NCBI GenBank assembly: GCA_003136595.1
Contig: PLEY01000018.1
Span: 1,918-41,857, forward strand
DNA: 39,940 nt
Reading direction: 5' to 3'
DNA from: Burkholderiales bacterium
Lineage (GTDB): Bacteria; Pseudomonadota; Gammaproteobacteria; Burkholderiales; Burkholderiaceae_D
The notes under the pieces were generated by a model that was given only the letters and a program-made list of their open reading frames with translations, had not been told where the DNA came from and did not search any database. The translations under genes were made by a program, and so were the position numbers. Each line of letters starts with the position of its first letter. The first letter of the stretch is position 1. Below are positions 32,078 through 39,669 of this stretch, one piece after another.

Positions 32078-32348
32078 ACGGGAAACCTCGGAAGCAGCAT
32101 TGCGCAGGTGCGGCCAGACCGACGACGGCAAAACCGGCCAAACCAAGACAAGGCCCGCCGGGATGACGCATGACCGCAGCGGGCCGGGGCGCGGGCGGGA
32201 CCCGCCCACGGCGTTAACCCACGATGCTACTGCTAAACGCACCCCTGCGCCCTGCCCCCCCCCCGCGAACCTGCCCTGAAGCCCCCGGCCCGGGGTTGTA
32301 TCCCGGCTTGCGGACCCTACTCCGCCAGGGCGCAAGTCTTTGCGCCGG

Positions 32349-32774
32349 CTAGACGAGGGTCAGCGTCACGTTGACGTTGCCGCGCGTCGCGTTCGAGTAG
32401 GGGCAGACCTGGTGCGCCTTGTGCACCAGATCCTCGGCGACCGCCTTGTCAAGCCCGGGCAGGCTGATCTTGAGCTCGACCTCGATCCCGAAACCATGCG
32501 GGATGGGTCCGATGCCGACGGTCCCGGTGATCGCGGTTTCAGCGGGCAAGGCCACCTTGGACTGGCCGGCGACGACCTTCAGGGCGCCGATGAAGCAGGC
32601 CGAGTAACCGGCTGCGAACAGCTGCTCGGGGTTGGTCCCGACCGCCCCGGCTCCCCCCAACTCCTTCGGCGTGGTGAGCTTGACGTCGAGCACGCCGTCC
32701 GAGGAAATGGCGCGACCCTCACGGCCACCCGTGGCGGTAGCCTGCGCCCGGTACAGAGTTTTTTCAAGATTCAT
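32349..32774 (-). CDS. ohr: Organic hydroperoxide resistance protein Ohr
   Basis: The 141-aa protein is a typical Ohr of the OsmC superfamily. The two redox cysteines are in the usual places (Cys60 in [12 protein letters not shown], Cys124 in [13 protein letters not shown]), and the catalytic Arg18 (GGREGR) and Glu50 (NPEQLF) are present. Ohr reduces fatty-acid and other organic hydroperoxides using lipoylated proteins as electron donors, in the cytosol. The ATG at 32774 has AAAGG upstream. It follows ohrR by 94 bp on the same strand; no second copy of the ohrR operator is visible in this gap, so expression from the ohrR promoter is likely. Confidence 0.96.
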
Positions 32775-32868
32775 GAGAGACCTTTCAAAGTGTGATGAGT
32801 GATCGAGAACTGCTCCAACAGGGGACCCTGTGCGCGGTGCGTACCGCGCCGGCCGTCCCGGGCCGATA

Positions 32869-33345
32869 TCAACCGACGGCGTCGACCGGACTGCCGATGA
32901 GATGCTCGCGCAGCGTCTCAAGACGCGCCTTGATGAGCGCGATCTCCTCGGGCGAACAACCGGTCGCGCAGAACACCTGGTAGGGAAGGGCCTGGGCACG
33001 ACGCCTCAGGCTTCGTCCTGTGCCGGTCAGGGACACGATCACCTGCCTCTCGTCGTCCTCGGAGCGTGCCCGGGCCACGAATCCCTGCGCCTCTAGGCGC
33101 TTTAACATGGGCGTGAGCGTTGCGGAATCGAGATACAGGCGCGCGCCGATCTCCGAGACGGTCTGGCGATCGGCCTGCCAGAGCACCAGCATGACGAGGT
33201 ATTGCGGATAGGTGAGGCCCAGCGGCTCGAGCAGCGGGCGATACGCCTGGGTCATCTTCAGCGCCGTCGAGTGCAGCGCGAAGCAGAGCTGGTCCTCGAG
33301 TCGCAGCGAGAGCGGCGCGTTGGCTTCCGGGGCTGCGGTTTTCAT
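32869..33345 (-). CDS. ohrR: Organic peroxide-sensing MarR-family repressor OhrR
   Basis: The 158-aa protein has the OhrR hallmark [22 protein letters not shown] with peroxidatic Cys21, and the winged helix ([44 protein letters not shown]). Further cysteines at 126 and 130 ([11 protein letters not shown]) match the position of the resolving Cys of two-Cys OhrR such as that of Xanthomonas (22/127; spacing 105 here too). Oxidation by organic peroxides releases it from DNA and induces ohr. It sits directly upstream of ohr, with a dyad operator 22 bp before its own start. Confidence 0.95.
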
Positions 33346-33366
33346 GTACCCAGTTTATATCGTACC

Positions 33367-33392
33367 CAATTCAATAGCAAGCTACTTAATTG
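33367..33392 (-). promoter_or_regulatory. OhrR operator and ohrR promoter region
   Basis: A 26-bp dyad of the form CAATT-N3-TAGC-AA-GCTA-N3-AATTG is centred between 33379 and 33380, 35 bp before the ohrR start. Towards the gene, a TATAAA-like -10 (around 33353-33358, minus strand) lies about 17 nt from a GCTTGC that overlaps the dyad. This arrangement fits autorepression by OhrR; its known sites are AT-rich dyads with AATTG-type arms. Confidence 0.7.
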
Positions 33393-33429
33393 TCTGAATT
33401 TGCGGACGGCGCGCGCGCCGGCCACACAC

Positions 33430-34374
33430 CTAGACCTCCAGGAGATCGCGCCCGACGATGATCTCGCCGGCGAAATAGGGACGGACCGCGTCGAGCCAGA
33501 CCGCATCCTCAAGATACGGGTAGCCTCCAGGGACGAAATGCGAGAGCACCAGCGTTCTGACGCCCGCCGCGGTCGCGATGCGGCCGACGTCCTCGCAGGA
33601 CGTATGCGCTGCCAGGAGGTGCTCCTTCAGGCGCACGGCATTGGGCTCAGAGGCGATCAGCTTCTCGAGAGACGGCAGATGCATGACCTCGTGCACCAGC
33701 ACGTCCGCGCCCTTGGCGAGCGCCACCAGGTTATCCGAGGGCGCGGTGTCGCCCGAGATCACGATCGAGCGCTCGGCCGTGTCGAAGCGCAAGGCGAAGG
33801 CCGGCACCACGGGCGGATGCTGAACCAGCGCCGCGGTGACCTTGACGCGCTCGTCTTGCATGACCACTCCAGGCGCGCTGATCTCGTGCGGCACGATGAG
33901 GGGCGCAAAGGGCACCCGCCCCTCATCTGCCGTGCGGATCCGGATGTCGTAGTCATTCAACTCCAGGAAGGCTTTTGTCATCTTCGCCAGGGGCGGCGGG
34001 CCCCAGGTGTCGACGGGATGGGTGAGATCCGACTCCCAGGCCAGGAGGAGGAGATTGCCGTAGTCGGCATTGTGGTCTGAATGCTGGTGGGTGATGAAGA
34101 CATCGCGGATGGCAGAGAACTTGACTCCCGCCAGCGCGAGCTGCCGGCCGACGCCGTTGCCACAATCGACGACGTAGGCGACCCCGTCGACCAGGATCAC
34201 CTGGGCCGGTGCCGAGCGGTTCTTCTTCGGGGTGGGACCGCCACCGGTGCCAAGGAGGATGAGCCGCGTATGGCGCGAGGGCAGCTGCGCGCGCGCGCGA
34301 TTCCAGGTTGCCGACAAGGCCAGAGAACTGAGGGCCGAACCCAGGACGAGCCGGCGGCGCATGCTATCGATCAT
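33430..34374 (-). CDS. Tat-exported metallo-beta-lactamase-fold hydrolase
   Basis: The 314-aa protein begins with a twin-arginine-type signal (MIDSMRRRLVLGSALSSLALS, Ala-X-Ala cleavage at ARAQ). The fold is a metallo-beta-lactamase of the RNase Z/arylsulfatase-like group: LILLGTGGGPTPKKNRS, metal motif FITHQHSDHNADYGN (HxHxDH), VISGDTAPSDNL (Asp ligand), LVHEVMHLP, and a late His in LVLSHFVPGG. All metal ligands are present. It is the last gene of the cupin/PheC-like/GNAT operon, 63 bp after the GNAT stop. The physiological substrate is unknown; a lactone or cyclic ester is possible. Confidence 0.88.
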   Translation of the reverse strand: MIDSMRRRLVLGSALSSLALSATWNRARAQLPSRHTRLILLGTGGGPTPKKNRSAPAQVILVDGVAYVVDCGNGVGRQLALAGVKFSAIRDVFITHQHSDHNADYGNLLLLAWESDLTHPVDTWGPPPLAKMTKAFLELNDYDIRIRTADEGRVPFAPLIVPHEISAPGVVMQDERVKVTAALVQHPPVVPAFALRFDTAERSIVISGDTAPSDNLVALAKGADVLVHEVMHLPSLEKLIASEPNAVRLKEHLLAAHTSCEDVGRIATAAGVRTLVLSHFVPGGYPYLEDAVWLDAVRPYFAGEIIVGRDLLEV

Positions 34375-34437
34375 CGGTCTTCTCTTTCTCGCCCAGGACT
34401 ACGGGCAGATGGACGGCGCCCCGTCGGACGCACGCGG

Positions 34438-34887
34438 TCACTGCGGTACGGGGAGCGTGGTCCGGTGGGCGAGCATGCTCAGCTCGACGCCGGCACGCCG
34501 GAACGTCTGGCGCGAGTCGGGCTCGGCAGCCATGCCCAGGCGCGCGTAGAAACCACCCACGCGCCGGTGCTCGCACAACAGCCGGGGCATGACGCACGCA
34601 AAGCCGCCGGCCTGAAGCCCGGCGTTAGCCCCTTCCCCAAGGAGGCGCCCAACCTCCCGGCCCCAGCAAGCTGCCAGGACATGGAGTGCCGGGATCTCGG
34701 GGCTGCCACGCTCGCACGCTGGCGCCCACATCCTCGCCCAGATCCGGGCGCACATCCCGGCCCGCTCGCAGACCAAGAGCAATGCGCGATACGCCACCGG
34801 GAGCGGGCTTGCATCCGCGCCCTGTCCGGACGCCACATGGACTTCGGCCAGCGCCATGGCATCGGCGTCCTGCGCTAGCGCAGCCAT
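34438..34887 (-). CDS. Probable GNAT-family acetyltransferase
   Basis: The 149-aa frame overlaps the end of the PheC-like gene by 13 bases. The pattern fits GNAT: a strand with VAYRALLLVCERAGMCARIW, then IPALHVLAACWGREVGRLLGEG where the acetyl-CoA loop (V..xxR/QxxGxG/A) is expected, and a terminal GGFYARLGMAAEPDSRQTFRRAGVELSMLA resembling the GNAT FYxxxGF region. The acetyl-CoA loop is weak (GREVGR), so the enzyme may be divergent or inactive. It has no signal peptide, unlike its neighbours. Alternative: a non-coding frame. Stop-start overlap and codon use make it likely real. Confidence 0.55.
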   Translation of the reverse strand: MAALAQDADAMALAEVHVASGQGADASPLPVAYRALLLVCERAGMCARIWARMWAPACERGSPEIPALHVLAACWGREVGRLLGEGANAGLQAGGFACVMPRLLCEHRRVGGFYARLGMAAEPDSRQTFRRAGVELSMLAHRTTLPVPQ

Positions 34888-35681
34888 GCACCCTCGGTCG
34901 CATCAAGGGTGCCGTTACTTTGCTCCAGATGCAGCCATTGATCGACGTAGTCCTTGAAGGCCGCATCGCCCTGTGGCACGAGGTAGGCCTTCTCCCCGTA
35001 CTGCAGCGGCCGGTCCAGATGCACCGGACAAAGTTCGGCATGGAGCTTGTGCTGCAGGAGCGTTTCCGAGTGGTCGGTGATCATGACGTCGGCGCGCCCG
35101 GCGATGATCTCAGCAAACACCGACAGGTTGTCGGTATGCACGTGCAGCTGGGCATTCTTCAGATGCGTGCGCGCGAAGCGCTCGTTGGTCCCGCCCGGGT
35201 TCTCGATGACCCGCACCCCGGGCTCATCGATGGCGGAAAGCGAATCGAAACGGGCTGCATCGGTACAGCGGGCGATCGCCCACTTGCCATCGACCAGATA
35301 TGGGCTCGAGAACGCTGCCTGCTTTTGGCGCTCGAGGGACACCGAGATGCCCCCGGCGGCCAGCTCGCATTTGCCCGCCTGGAAATCCTGGATCAGGTGC
35401 GGCCAGCTGGTCGCGACGTACTGAACCTGGGCGCCCAGCGCCTGGGCAAGGCGCCCGACGAGCTCGATGTCCAGGCCTTCATACGAGCCGTCGTCCCGCA
35501 AGAACGAGAAGGGGCGGTAGTCCCCGGTGGTGCAGACCCTAAGGGTGTGGCTCGTCAACACCCTGTCGAGGACGGACTCGGCACCTGCAGCCCATCCCGG
35601 TGCCGTGCCGAAGGCACACGCGAGCATCAGGACCGATGCGCTTAGCGCGGAGCACAGGGTCCGGACGCACCGGGCCCTCAT
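34875..35681 (-). CDS. pheC: Cyclohexadienyl dehydratase-like periplasmic protein (PheC type)
   Basis: The 268-aa protein has a signal peptide (CSALSASVLMLACAFGTAPGWA) and a periplasmic binding-protein fold. It follows the Pseudomonas PheC pattern closely: LRVCTTGDYRPFSFLRDDGSYEGLDIELVGRLA, TSWPHLIQDFQAGKCELAAGGISVSLERQK, ENPGGTNERFAR, VMITDHSETLLQHKLHAELCPVH, YLVPQGDAAFKDYVDQWL. The Glu in TDHSET matches the catalytic Glu of PheC. PheC makes phenylpyruvate from prephenate, or phenylalanine from arogenate, in the periplasm. Without a permease or ATPase gene nearby it is unlikely to be a transporter component. Its ATG overlaps the cupin stop (ATGA). Confidence 0.82.
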   Translation of the reverse strand: MRARCVRTLCSALSASVLMLACAFGTAPGWAAGAESVLDRVLTSHTLRVCTTGDYRPFSFLRDDGSYEGLDIELVGRLAQALGAQVQYVATSWPHLIQDFQAGKCELAAGGISVSLERQKQAAFSSPYLVDGKWAIARCTDAARFDSLSAIDEPGVRVIENPGGTNERFARTHLKNAQLHVHTDNLSVFAEIIAGRADVMITDHSETLLQHKLHAELCPVHLDRPLQYGEKAYLVPQGDAAFKDYVDQWLHLEQSNGTLDATEGAWLR

Positions 35682-36124
35682 GGTGCCGGCGTTGCGAGCG
35701 GCTGTCCCTTCTCGACGACGTAGACGCCGACCAGTTTCATCGGCTGCGAGCCGGTATTGCGTGCATCGTGTTTGACGCCTGCAGGCACGACGAAGGCATC
35801 GCCGGCCTTGACCACCTGCGGAGGCTTGCCCTCTACGAGCAGTTCACCCTCGCCCTCCAGGACGTAGCTGACCTCGTCACCCGGATGGGTGTGGCGCCCG
35901 GCGATCACGCCCGGCCCGATCTCGACGCGCGCGACCACGGCCTCCCGTCCTGGCACCGAAACATCGGCGCGCTGCACGATGGTGCGCTGCAACCCCGGAT
36001 TCTGCGCATACAGGATGCCAGCGGAGAACGCGCCGGCGACGACGGCTGCATGCAATCCCCGTCGTCCCCACCGCCCCCACGCTCCTGGTCCTCCCCACTG
36101 CGCCCATTTCTCGATTGGTTTCAT
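35678..36124 (-). CDS. Exported cupin-domain protein
   Basis: The 148-aa protein starts with a Trp/Gly-rich polar stretch, then a hydrophobic helix (LHAAVVAGAFSAGILYA) that is a signal peptide or anchor. The cupin barrel follows, with the two motifs: GVIAGRHTHPGDEVSYVLEGEGELLVEG (metal ligands His, His, Glu) and GDAFVVPAGVKHDARNTG (His). It can bind a metal and act as a dioxygenase, isomerase or sensor, probably in the periplasm. It is the first gene of the operon with the PheC-like, GNAT and MBL genes, coupled by ATGA to pheC. The upstream 297 bp are divergent to an SDR gene. Confidence 0.88.
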   Translation of the reverse strand: MKPIEKWAQWGGPGAWGRWGRRGLHAAVVAGAFSAGILYAQNPGLQRTIVQRADVSVPGREAVVARVEIGPGVIAGRHTHPGDEVSYVLEGEGELLVEGKPPQVVKAGDAFVVPAGVKHDARNTGSQPMKLVGVYVVEKGQPLATPAP

Positions 36125-36421
36125 GATTCCGGTCTCCTCTTCAGGTTCGTCTTCTGTACGTGCTGCAGCGCGGTCAGCCGCGCGCCACGCTGTTCAGGCC
36201 GGGCTACACCCTTCGGCCGAGTGCGAGCTTAGCACTGCGCGCCGCCCCTGAGGAAACGGGGTGCACGAGTCACCCAGGCTCGGGGGTGGCAGAGGCGCAC
36301 CGGTATGCCCTTCGACACTGGGTGCTGGGCGATGATAACCTCATGCCGTGGACTTCATGAATTGAACCTGACGGAGAAGCGGTGCCGGCGGCGCTCGGTC
36401 CGAACAGGCGGGGGCAGACAG

Positions 36422-37150
36422 ATGACCGATGACAAGGCGGTGTTGGTGGTCGGCGCGGGCGACGCCACCGGCGGCGCGATCGCAAGGCGCTTTGCGCGTG
36501 CCGGCTATATCGCCTGCGTGACGCGCCGTGATGCAGCACGGCTTGGCGATCTGGTGGCGAGCATCGAGGCCGAGGGAGGTGCGGCCCACCCGTTTGGCTC
36601 GGACGCGCGCGAGGAACAGCAGGTCGTCGAACTGTTCGAGAAGATCGAGACCGACATCGCGCCCCTTGAGGTGGTGGTGTTCAACATCGGCGCGAACGTG
36701 CGTTTTCCGATCCGCGAGACCACGGCGCGCGTGTATCGCAAGGTCTGGGAGATGGCGGCCTTTGCCGGTTTTCTTGTCGGTCGCGAGGCGGCGCGCGTGA
36801 TGGTGCCGCGTGGGCACGGCTCGATCTTCTTCACCGGGGCGACCGCGAGCCTGCGGGGTCGCGAGGGCTTTGCCGCCTTCGCCGGCGCCAAGCATGCCCT
36901 GCGGGCGCTTGCGCAGAGCATGGCGCGCGAACTCGGTCCGCAGGGGATCCACGTGGTCCACCCGGTGATCGACGGCGCGATCGACACCGCCTGGATCAAG
37001 GAGAATTTCCCGGAACGCTATGCCCTCAAGGACCAGGACGGCATTCTCGAGCCCGACGCCATCGCCGAGGCCTACTGGCAGCTGCACGCCCAGGCCCGCT
37101 GCGCCTGGACGCACGAACTGGATCTGCGCCCCTGGAGCGAGAACTGGTAG
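36422..37150 (+). CDS. SDR-family oxidoreductase lacking the catalytic Tyr
   Basis: The 242-aa protein has the Rossmann nucleotide loop VVGAGDATGGAIARRFARAG, the NIGAN segment (NxG) near 88-92, and FFTGATASL where the catalytic Ser region lies. The YxxxK motif is changed to FAGAK (Phe153, Lys157), followed by HALRALAQSMARELGPQGIHVVHP. An FAGAK motif occurs in a subfamily of SDRs, so the enzyme may use another acid or have another reaction. The start is ATG 36422; GGGGG is upstream. It is followed by the kappa-GST-like isomerase gene at 51 bp. A weak promoter TTCGAC-16-TGATAA lies at 36311-36338. Confidence 0.88.
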   Translation: MTDDKAVLVVGAGDATGGAIARRFARAGYIACVTRRDAARLGDLVASIEAEGGAAHPFGSDAREEQQVVELFEKIETDIAPLEVVVFNIGANVRFPIRETTARVYRKVWEMAAFAGFLVGREAARVMVPRGHGSIFFTGATASLRGREGFAAFAGAKHALRALAQSMARELGPQGIHVVHPVIDGAIDTAWIKENFPERYALKDQDGILEPDAIAEAYWQLHAQARCAWTHELDLRPWSENW

Positions 37151-37201: not shown

Positions 37202-37795
37202 ATGCAGAAAACCGTCGAATTCCTCTTCGATTTCGGCAGCCCGTATACCTATCTCGCCTACCATGAGGTCAGACGCATCGCCCAGGCGCAGGATGCCTTG
37301 CTGGTGTGGACCCCGATGCTCTTGGGCGGAGTGTTCCAGGCAACCGGCAACCACAGCCCCGCGCAGGTGCCTGCCAAGGGTGCCTGGATGCAGGGTGACT
37401 TAAGGCGCTGGGCGGCGCGCTTTGGCGTGGTGTTCCGGGACAATCCCCACTTCCCGATCAACACCCTCACCCTCATGCGTGGCGCGGTCGGCTACCAGGC
37501 GCTGGGCGGGCGCTTTCTCGATTACGTCGAACTGGCGTTCCGGGGGATGTGGGTGGATGCCGAAAACCTGGGCGATCCGGCAGTCCTCGCCGCAGTGCTG
37601 GCACGCGCGGGCTTTGCGCCCGAGGAGTTTCAGGCCATGGTCGCCGACCCGGCCGTCAAGGCGCGCTTGAAGGAGAACACCGACGCCGCGATTGCGCGGG
37701 GCGTGTTCGGCGCACCCAGCTTCATTGTCGACGGGCAACTCTACTGGGGCCAGGACCGGCTCAGCTTCGTCGAGGAGGCGTTGGCCAGCGCCTAG
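37202..37795 (+). CDS. 2-hydroxychromene-2-carboxylate isomerase family protein (DsbA-like, kappa GST)
   Basis: The 197-aa protein has the thioredoxin-like DsbA/kappa-GST fold without CxxC: VEFLFDFGSPYTYLAY with the active Ser, VWTPMLLGGVFQATGN, PAKGAWMQGDLRRWAARFGV, and RGVFGAPSFIVDGQLYWGQDRLSFVEEAL. The family includes the glutathione-dependent NahD isomerase of naphthalene degradation; most members are generic. It lies immediately downstream of the SDR and convergent with paaK. Together they suggest an aromatic or xenobiotic catabolic setting. GGAGAC lies just before the ATG. Confidence 0.92.
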   Translation: MQKTVEFLFDFGSPYTYLAYHEVRRIAQAQDALLVWTPMLLGGVFQATGNHSPAQVPAKGAWMQGDLRRWAARFGVVFRDNPHFPINTLTLMRGAVGYQALGGRFLDYVELAFRGMWVDAENLGDPAVLAAVLARAGFAPEEFQAMVADPAVKARLKENTDAAIARGVFGAPSFIVDGQLYWGQDRLSFVEEALASA

Positions 37796-37819: not shown

Positions 37820-39142
37820 CTACCGGCGGGTGCGCCGGTCGAGCACGCGGCGCGCCTTGCCCACCGCGGTGCGCTCGATGCCGCCGGGCGCGACCGGCGT
37901 CACCGTGGCGCTCACGCCGATGTACGATTTCACGTGATGCTGCAGTTCCCGCGCGAGCGCCACGCGCTCGGACTCCGCCAGCCCGCTCCAGGCCTCAGGG
38001 CGCACCTCGACCACGATCTCCAGCGCATCCAGCAGACCCTCCCGGGTGACGATCAGCTGATAGTGCGGTGCGAGCCTTGGCGTGCGCAGGATCAGGTCCT
38101 CGACCTGGGTGGGAAAGAGGTTGACCCCGCGGATGATGAGCATGTCATCCGAGCGCCCGGTGATCTTGTCCATGCGCCGCATCGAGCGGGCCGTGGGCGG
38201 CAGCAGCCGTGTCAGGTCGCGCGTGCGATAACGGATCACGGGCAGGGCCTCCTTGGTCAGGGAGGTGAAAACCAGCTCGCCCTCTGCGCCATCGGGCAGT
38301 ACGCGACCGGTGTCGGGATCGATGATCTCAGGATAGAAGTGGTCCTCCCAGATGACAGGACCATCCTTGGTCTCCACGCACTCGCTGGCAACGCCTGGAC
38401 CCATCACCTCCGAGAGGCCATAGATGTCGACCGCATCCATGCCGCTGGCCTGCTCGATCTCAGAGCGCATCGCATTGGTCCAGGGCTCCGCCCCGAAGAT
38501 GCCGATGCGCAGCGAGCTCGCGCGGGGATCCAGACCCTGCCGCACCATCTCCTCGAGCAGCACCAGCATGTACGAGGGTGTGACCATGATGATGCTGGGC
38601 TTGAAGTCGGCGATCAGCTGCACCTGCTTCTCGGTCTGGCCCCCTGACATCGGGATGACCGTGCAGCCGAGGCGCTCGGCACCGTAGTGGGCGCCGAGGC
38701 CGCCGGTGAACAGTCCGTAACCATAGGCGATGTGGATCATGTCCCCGGCGCGCCCGCCCGCCGCACGGATCGAGCGCGCGACGAGCCCCGCCCATACATC
38801 AAGATCGGCCGCGGTGTAGCCGACCACGGTCGGCTTGCCGGTCGTGCCGCTCGAGGCATGGATGCGCAGCACCTGCTCGCGCGGCACGGCGAACAGGCCA
38901 AACGGATAGTTGTCGCGCAGATCGCTCTTCGTGAGCAGCGGAAAGTGCGCGAGGTCCGAGAGCTCCTTGAGCGCGTCCGGATGGACACCGGCCGCATCGA
39001 AGCTGCGCCGGTAGTGGGGCACGTTCTCATAGGCGCGCTTAAGCGAGGTGCGCAGCCGCTCAAGTTGCAGCGCTGCCAGTTCGTCGCGGCTGGCCGTCTC
39101 GATCGGCTCGAGTCGCGCAGGGGTGCCGGTGGGATTGAGCAT
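37820..39142 (-). CDS. paaK: Phenylacetate-CoA ligase PaaK
   Basis: The 440-aa protein is a full PaaK. Motifs in order: HFPLLTKSDLRDNYPFGLFAV, P-loop IHASSGTTGKPTVVGYT, IHIAYGYGLFTGGLGAHYG, FGAEPW, DIYGLSEVMGPGVASE, RTRDLTRLL, GRSDDMLIIRGVNLFPTQVED and a C-terminal GKARRV carrying the catalytic Lys. It activates phenylacetate with ATP and CoA in the cytosol, the entry reaction of the aerobic hybrid pathway. GGAG lies nine bases upstream of ATG 39142. It follows paaI by 50 bp on the same strand and is the last gene of the visible operon. Confidence 0.97.
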   Translation of the reverse strand: MLNPTGTPARLEPIETASRDELAALQLERLRTSLKRAYENVPHYRRSFDAAGVHPDALKELSDLAHFPLLTKSDLRDNYPFGLFAVPREQVLRIHASSGTTGKPTVVGYTAADLDVWAGLVARSIRAAGGRAGDMIHIAYGYGLFTGGLGAHYGAERLGCTVIPMSGGQTEKQVQLIADFKPSIIMVTPSYMLVLLEEMVRQGLDPRASSLRIGIFGAEPWTNAMRSEIEQASGMDAVDIYGLSEVMGPGVASECVETKDGPVIWEDHFYPEIIDPDTGRVLPDGAEGELVFTSLTKEALPVIRYRTRDLTRLLPPTARSMRRMDKITGRSDDMLIIRGVNLFPTQVEDLILRTPRLAPHYQLIVTREGLLDALEIVVEVRPEAWSGLAESERVALARELQHHVKSYIGVSATVTPVAPGGIERTAVGKARRVLDRRTRR

Positions 39143-39192
39143 GGGGGTTGTCTCCTTCTGTCCTCGATGGTGCACAGCGCAGCGGGCCCCGG

Positions 39193-39669
39193 CTAGGCGG
39201 CAAGCCCCGTGCTGCCGGGATCGATCACGGTACCCGCGATGCGGTGCGACTTGCCCCTGAAGAGGGCGATCCGCTGTCCGTCCGCGCGCGTCACGACGAT
39301 GTCATACACGCCGGTGCGCCCGGCCAGGGCCTGTTCGGTAGCCAGCGCGGTCAAAACGTCCCCTTCGGCGGCCGGCGCGAGAAAGTCAATCATGCAGGCA
39401 GCCGCCACGGTGTTCTGGTTGTGGCTGTTGCAGGCGAAGGCAAAGCAGCTGTCGGCGAGGGTGAAGATGAAGCCGCCGTGACAGATGGCATGGCCGTTGA
39501 GCATGTCGCCACGCACCCGCATCGACAGCCGCGCGCTGCCGGGTCCGATGGCCTCGATCTGGATCCCCAGCATCTGCGTGGCGCGGTCACGGGCGTACAT
39601 CGCCGCGCCCACCGCCCGGGCCAGCGCACCCGGATCGCCTGACGGATCCACCACCTCATCCTTAGCCAA
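39193..39669 (-). CDS. paaI: Hydroxyphenylacetyl-CoA thioesterase PaaI
   Basis: The protein is a hotdog-fold thioesterase with the PaaI signature NGHAICHGGFIFTLADSCFAFACNS (catalytic Asp in LAD), followed by IDFLAPAAEGDVLTA and VYDIVVTRADGQRIALFRG. PaaI hydrolyses dead-end CoA esters from the phenylacetate pathway and so rescues free CoA. The TTG at 39669 is preferred, because AGGAG lies six bases before it, giving 158 aa; the frame opens further to 39708. It sits between paaE and paaK on the same strand. Confidence 0.93.
   Translation of the reverse strand: MAKDEVVDPSGDPGALARAVGAAMYARDRATQMLGIQIEAIGPGSARLSMRVRGDMLNGHAICHGGFIFTLADSCFAFACNSHNQNTVAAACMIDFLAPAAEGDVLTALATEQALAGRTGVYDIVVTRADGQRIALFRGKSHRIAGTVIDPGSTGLAA

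Follow-up and report, generated by a model that had tools for sequence, protein, structure and literature searches.

We analysed a stretch of 39,940 nucleotides from a Burkholderiales bacterium (hereafter the window; G000:C91:1918-41857, on contig PLEY01000018.1 of assembly GCA_003136595.1), in which pheC, the gene of a putative exported cyclohexadienyl (prephenate/arogenate) dehydratase (CDT), lies next to the gene of a predicted exported metal cupin and near the phenylacetate (paa) operon. The reading we favour, to which we give a probability of roughly 40%, is that PheC has become attached to the 3' side of the phenylacetate operon, mostly together with the cupin, and would there salvage stray prephenate or arogenate. 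The sequence supports an exported CDT, in a setting that is unusual, weakly conserved and, as far as gene content indicates, catabolic. A preliminary description of this DNA had instead placed the cupin, PheC, a GNAT protein and a metallo-beta-lactamase (MBL)-fold hydrolase in one periplasmic pathway and had overlooked the paa operon, which is the more informative neighbour. Comparisons covered 392 family genomes, themselves a sample of a larger group, among which a sister species (G001) is the only congener of the window's genome (G000; 4.86 Mb in 196 contigs, 94.36% complete). Homologue searches scored 4 to 10 candidates per genome, so that further paralogues may have been missed, as may adjacency across contig ends where contigs are split. 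Gene starts came from an ad hoc caller and may be misplaced (in L068 the PheC frame was misread), and all export signals were judged by eye from the N-terminal sequences.

The assignment of PheC is carried by its structural relatives and by its active site. In the PDB it matches cyclohexadienyl dehydratases best, reconstructed ancestors as well as present-day enzymes (6wup, E = 2.6e-86; 3kbr, E = 1.4e-80), and the top nine are CDTs, fusions of CDT with chorismate mutase (CM) or reconstructed ancestors of the CDT lineage (all at 2.1e-42 or below), the first plain binding protein appearing at 2.7e-21. The nine active-site residues of the Pseudomonas aeruginosa enzyme (PaCDT) are all kept (residues 55, 93, 133, 161, 165, 166, 185, 202 and 206), as they are in 56 of 61 other PheC loci examined; Ala replaces Thr169 in two of the 61 (L008 and L009), and three (L036-L038) were covered in part. 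The N-terminus looks Sec-like by eye, that of four homologues also looks hydrophobic, and a profile search found no CM domain in the window protein. By its residues, PheC is therefore a putative exported cyclohexadienyl dehydratase, which agrees with what the preliminary description had proposed for it, including its predicted export and its place beside an apparently exported metal cupin and MBL protein. That PheC acts solely as a solute-binding protein or sensor would be compatible with its solute-binding fold (PF00497), and one fusion, TaCMCDT, is reported to show no CDT activity in vivo, for which its authors blame low solubility (PMC10520331). We consider this quite improbable, given that the catalytic site is complete, general acid included, and that no ABC transporter gene stands among the annotated window neighbours of pheC.

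The second line of evidence is the gene order around pheC. At the window locus the paa set consists of paaABCDE, paaI, paaK and paaX, all equivalogs above their curated cut-offs except PaaE, which reaches 358.7 bits against a cut-off of 420.8; the sequence of this genome holds ambiguous bases there, with ambiguous residues in the middle of the gene, and the low score probably reflects an assembly gap. PheC was found in 83 of the 392 genomes (E <= 1e-40) and PaaK in 238 (E <= 1e-150), and 47 genomes have both (counted by hand from the match lists). The two genes are neighbours in four of these 47, which belong to three genera (G000, G001, G020 and G035), and in all four the order is the same: a divergent paaX, paaABCDEIK and then pheC, with the cupin gene preceding it in three. 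For the three genomes other than G000, the paa gene names rest on similarity to the G000 genes, and for PaaE in G020 and PaaI in G035 also on a profile match. In G020, 64 bp separate paaK from the cupin gene and 6 bp the cupin gene from pheC, and in G035 (L073) pheC follows paaK after 26 bp with no cupin there, ohr being the second gene after pheC. In the window's genus, an SDR/DsbA pair sits between paaK and the cupin gene.

This linkage suggests catabolic salvage. Prephenate or arogenate that has leaked out, or that comes from lysed neighbours, would undergo dehydration in the periplasm; the cell would take up the resulting phenylpyruvate or phenylalanine and turn it into phenylacetate by ordinary transamination and decarboxylation. 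Phenylacetate would then be converted to phenylacetyl-CoA and, through the Paa enzymes, burned as food. Uptake and the steps from phenylpyruvate to phenylacetate are established general chemistry. The cupin might, speculatively, serve as an accessory acting on an enol or keto aromatic product; nothing ties the MBL protein, OhrR or Ohr to the proposed salvage. In favour of salvage, a comparison of the two congeners shows purifying selection on PheC (pN/pS 0.35), the cupin (0.20) and PaaK (0.20), and PheC is not needed for phenylalanine synthesis, since G000 encodes a fused cytosolic chorismate mutase-prephenate dehydratase, PheA (at C139). The stronger version of this reading, in which the exported dehydratase and the exported metal cupin would be dedicated to phenylacetate catabolism as its front end, through which shikimate intermediates are eaten via Paa, appears rather unlikely to us.

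Several observations weigh against the salvage reading. Linkage of pheC to paaK is rare, 43 of the 47 genomes with both being unlinked as far as seen (29 by listed coordinates, G040 by its own stretch, L074, and 13 by dedicated stretches). Co-transcription of paaK and the cupin gene is unlikely in the window because the divergent SDR/DsbA pair intervenes, and no exported chorismate mutase that would account for a supply of prephenate was found in G000. Finally, the linked arrangement may go back to a single ancestral paa-pheC event: in a PheC tree the paa-linked proteins form no supported clade, a single clade is not rejected (p-AU 0.192), and parsimony counts three changes.

There is a real possibility that the locus is a local gene string without a pathway, made up of an ordinary exported CDT and a paa adjacency which arose as one inherited rearrangement and happened to survive in a small number of related genera. 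The 43 unlinked genomes and the unrejected single clade fit this explanation, and so do the annotated PheC neighbours elsewhere, which are of other kinds (URO-D, PPK2, GntR-aminotransferase, GDSL, AsnC-type and GNA1162-like). It accounts less well for the divergence of the three paa-linked genera, whose PheC proteins are 50-58% identical to that of the window, because genes that are neighbours without selection would in many cases have become separated over such a distance, and for spacing that is operon-tight in both G020 and G035. With regard to those other neighbours, in the genus g28 pheC follows, on the same strand, a gene for a MocR-type (GntR-aminotransferase) regulator (L072:4507-6006, assigned by family; L078:4406-5950, by position and size), possibly a different regulatory setting for the exported CDT.

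The supply of prephenate also bears on a further explanation, modelled on P. aeruginosa, in which an exported chorismate mutase, PheC and an aminotransferase make phenylalanine outside the cytoplasm; such a hidden overflow pathway is proposed for that species (PMC10520331). The window's PheC, present and residue-complete, would suit it, and G020 has a second CM_2 match (E = 1.4e-8; G020:C120:27113-27322, L129) in a frame of 192 aa whose start looks by eye like an export signal, likely an exported chorismate mutase in a genome with paa-linked PheC, so that this genome combines two of the three components. In G020 this enzyme would supply prephenate outside the cytoplasm, which speaks for the salvage reading as well. 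In G000, at its 94.36% completeness, the only CM_2 match (E <= 0.001) is the CM domain of PheA, which weakens the overflow explanation for the window's genome, and neither G001 nor G035 has a second CM_2 match; overall we regard it as improbable. CDT-CM fusions do occur in this family and taxonomic order: L074:6055-7305 and L079:5571-6848 (the same family) and L080:1872-3134 (the same order) carry CM_2 matches of 5.9e-10 to 8.1e-12. More broadly, 27 of 85 PheC matches lie in open frames of at least 416 aa, the CM domain having been checked in these three loci (one of the 27, the 771-aa frame of G263, may be a mere overlapping frame). Fusions of CDT and CM are reported from nine species, and those of the domain order seen in this family from beta-proteobacteria (PMC10520331).

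The grouping proposed in the preliminary description, four enzymes acting in series in the periplasm on an aromatic compound or signal molecule, fared less well. The cupin was found in 81 genomes (E <= 1e-20) and the MBL protein in 35 (E <= 1e-30), and co-occurrence of each with PheC was recounted by script. Of the 16 genomes that have both PheC and the MBL protein, the two from the window's genus have the genes adjacent, and the 14 from outside it show no linkage. PheC and the cupin share 21 genomes and are adjacent in three (G000, G001 and G020). Three genomes (G000, G001 and G009) have all three proteins, which in the last of these are spread over three contigs. Of 33 loci from the PheC scan in named genomes, some of them short, only L006 (contig G001:C117) has relatives of both the MBL protein and PaaK; L030 has a weak cupin match and L032 a weak SDR match. 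All four loci stand side by side, in the same gene order, in G000 and its congener G001 only. From these adjacency counts and the search with the supposed GNAT gene, the four-gene set is a two-species arrangement within one genus, and the conservation in other genomes that was expected of it was largely not found.

The supposed GNAT protein itself, which had been read as the cytosolic member of the set, has no match in Pfam (E 0.1), NCBIfam (E 0.01) or PHROGs (E 1); in the PDB its best match is a pilus protein at E = 0.1, with the acetyltransferase 1wk4 at E = 0.65. The sister species carries in the same slot an intact GNAT of 180 aa (PF00583, 2.6e-15; PDB 1wk4, 3e-20), to which the window frame is 32% (tblastn) or 37% (global) identical. 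The window copy is 31 residues shorter, a stretch of about 30 residues being gone from the middle, and its pN/pS between the two congeners is 0.68, against 0.05-0.35 for eight neighbours (DsbA 0.30, SDR 0.20, MBL 0.23, OhrR 0.34 and Ohr 0.05, besides the values for PaaK, the cupin and PheC given above). In a search of 119 relatives it found itself alone at 1e-5. It looks like a decayed, shortened and fast-diverging relic of a GNAT gene, although its frame is still open, which makes this decay or extreme divergence and not a proven pseudogene. The shared order in two species and the purifying selection on cupin, PheC and MBL speak for a four-enzyme pathway; with the GNAT apparently decayed, the MBL gene lying apart from pheC in every one of the 14 other genomes that have both and the set not conserved outside the genus, we rejected it as a very remote prospect.

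Coupling of the four genes, also proposed earlier, held in part. The open reading frames are all on the (-) strand, those of cupin and PheC overlapping by 4 bp (ATGA) and those of PheC and the GNAT relic by 13 bp. A gap of 63 bp separates the relic from the MBL gene, so overlaps do not couple all members of the run, and on the same strand it continues past the MBL gene to ohrR (after 84 bp) and ohr (after a further gap of 94 bp). In the sister species PheC and GNAT overlap by 4 bp, and 40 bp lie between cupin and PheC if the start chosen for PheC is right, longer and shorter starts being possible. A promoter and terminator scan of positions 32200-36500 was uninformative, with no promoter-like site and two terminator-like sites against 2.1 expected in shuffled sequence. 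The features are listed in the table.

Table. Features of the window around pheC and the phenylacetate operon (window positions).
Feature	Position	Strand	Evidence and remarks
ohr, organic hydroperoxide reductase	32349..32774	(-)	TIGR03561, 3.8e-56
ohrR-like MarR regulator	32869..33345	(-)	family profiles; 84 bp after MBL
MBL-fold metallo-hydrolase, Tat-like export, RNase Z/arylsulfatase-like branch	33430..34374	(-)	PF12706
Apparent degenerate GNAT remnant, 149 aa	34438..34887	(-)	no family match; intact 180-aa GNAT in sister species
pheC, putative exported cyclohexadienyl (prephenate/arogenate) dehydratase	34875..35681	(-)	PF00497; PDB 6wup, 3kbr; general acid Glu206
Predicted exported cupin (PF07883)	35678..36124	(-)	Cupin_2, 7.5e-21; N-terminal hydrophobic export signal or anchor
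SDR oxidoreductase	36422..37150	(+)	profile match; divergent from cupin, between paaK and cupin
DsbA-fold protein (PF01323)	37202..37795	(+)	profile match; convergent with paaK
paaK, phenylacetate-CoA ligase	37820..39175	(-)	TIGR02155, 737.3 bits (cut-off 646.3)
paaI, thioesterase	39193..39669	(-)	profile match
paaE	from 39736 (L086:654-1604)		followed by paaDCBA and divergent paaX; mostly past window end

The export signals claimed for the cupin, PheC and the MBL protein look Sec-like, Sec-like and Tat-like, respectively, on inspection by eye. The cupin has the metal ligands His78, His80, Glu84 and His119, an HHEH set that all 21 relatives examined share with it. Around 19 cupin relatives the genes called vary in size and orientation (gene calls only); at six of these 19 loci (L131, L132, L135, L137, L140 and L147) a small gene for a membrane-protein-like product of 105-117 aa lies directly upstream on the same strand, possibly a recurrent cupin partner, and it is absent at the window cupin. 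The cupin relative of G009 (G009:C44:26125-26361) is short, an 88-aa open frame broken by a TAA stop.

The MBL protein has the ligands H96, H98, D100, H101, H186, D209 and H279 (HxHxDH plus three more), all seven being present in six of six relatives. Its N-terminus carries an RRR motif, and RRR or RR precedes a hydrophobic stretch in six of seven MBL N-termini, the exception being L083, whose start is possibly late. The nearest PDB matches are the MBL-fold arylsulfatase 8gyg (5.9e-30) and PNGM-1; assignment as RNase Z was tried and discarded, the score being 158.3 bits against an equivalog cut-off of 363. Its neighbours in five other genomes vary from genome to genome, and in G009 a gene for a MarR-type regulator, not a close OhrR relative, lies directly beside it, as ohrR does in the window.

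If a front-end role in phenylacetate catabolism were true, the exported CDTs, a puzzle for a long time, would gain a catabolic function. The role of the exported CDT-CM fusions is called an enigma by authors who favour signalling (PMC10520331), and the paa-(cupin)-pheC order offers catabolic salvage as a testable alternative. A search of the open-access literature for CDT, PheC or prephenate joined with phenylacetate or paa returned nothing apart from apparently unrelated matches, and one for CDT with cupin returned nothing related by title.

Compared with known systems, the window's MBL protein is alike, by sequence, in fold to the branch of arylsulfatase 8gyg, PNGM-1 and RNase Z and has its full set of metal ligands, but differs in its Tat-like signal and in scoring under the RNase Z equivalog cut-off. 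PheC shares a CDT domain with the exported CDT-CM and CM-CDT fusions (PMC10520331) but is without a CM domain. It resembles PaCDT (P. aeruginosa PheC; PDB 3kbr, 5hpq), for which a turnover near 1e6 per M per s is reported, in fold family and in the nine active-site residues, and by eye its N-terminus looks like an export signal, whereas its gene adjoins a paa operon together with that of a predicted exported cupin, in a genome where no exported chorismate mutase was found. With respect to the paaABCDEIK operon with PaaX, the window locus has the full set and a divergent paaX, with (cupin)-pheC at the 3' side of the operon, an arrangement that two further genera share.

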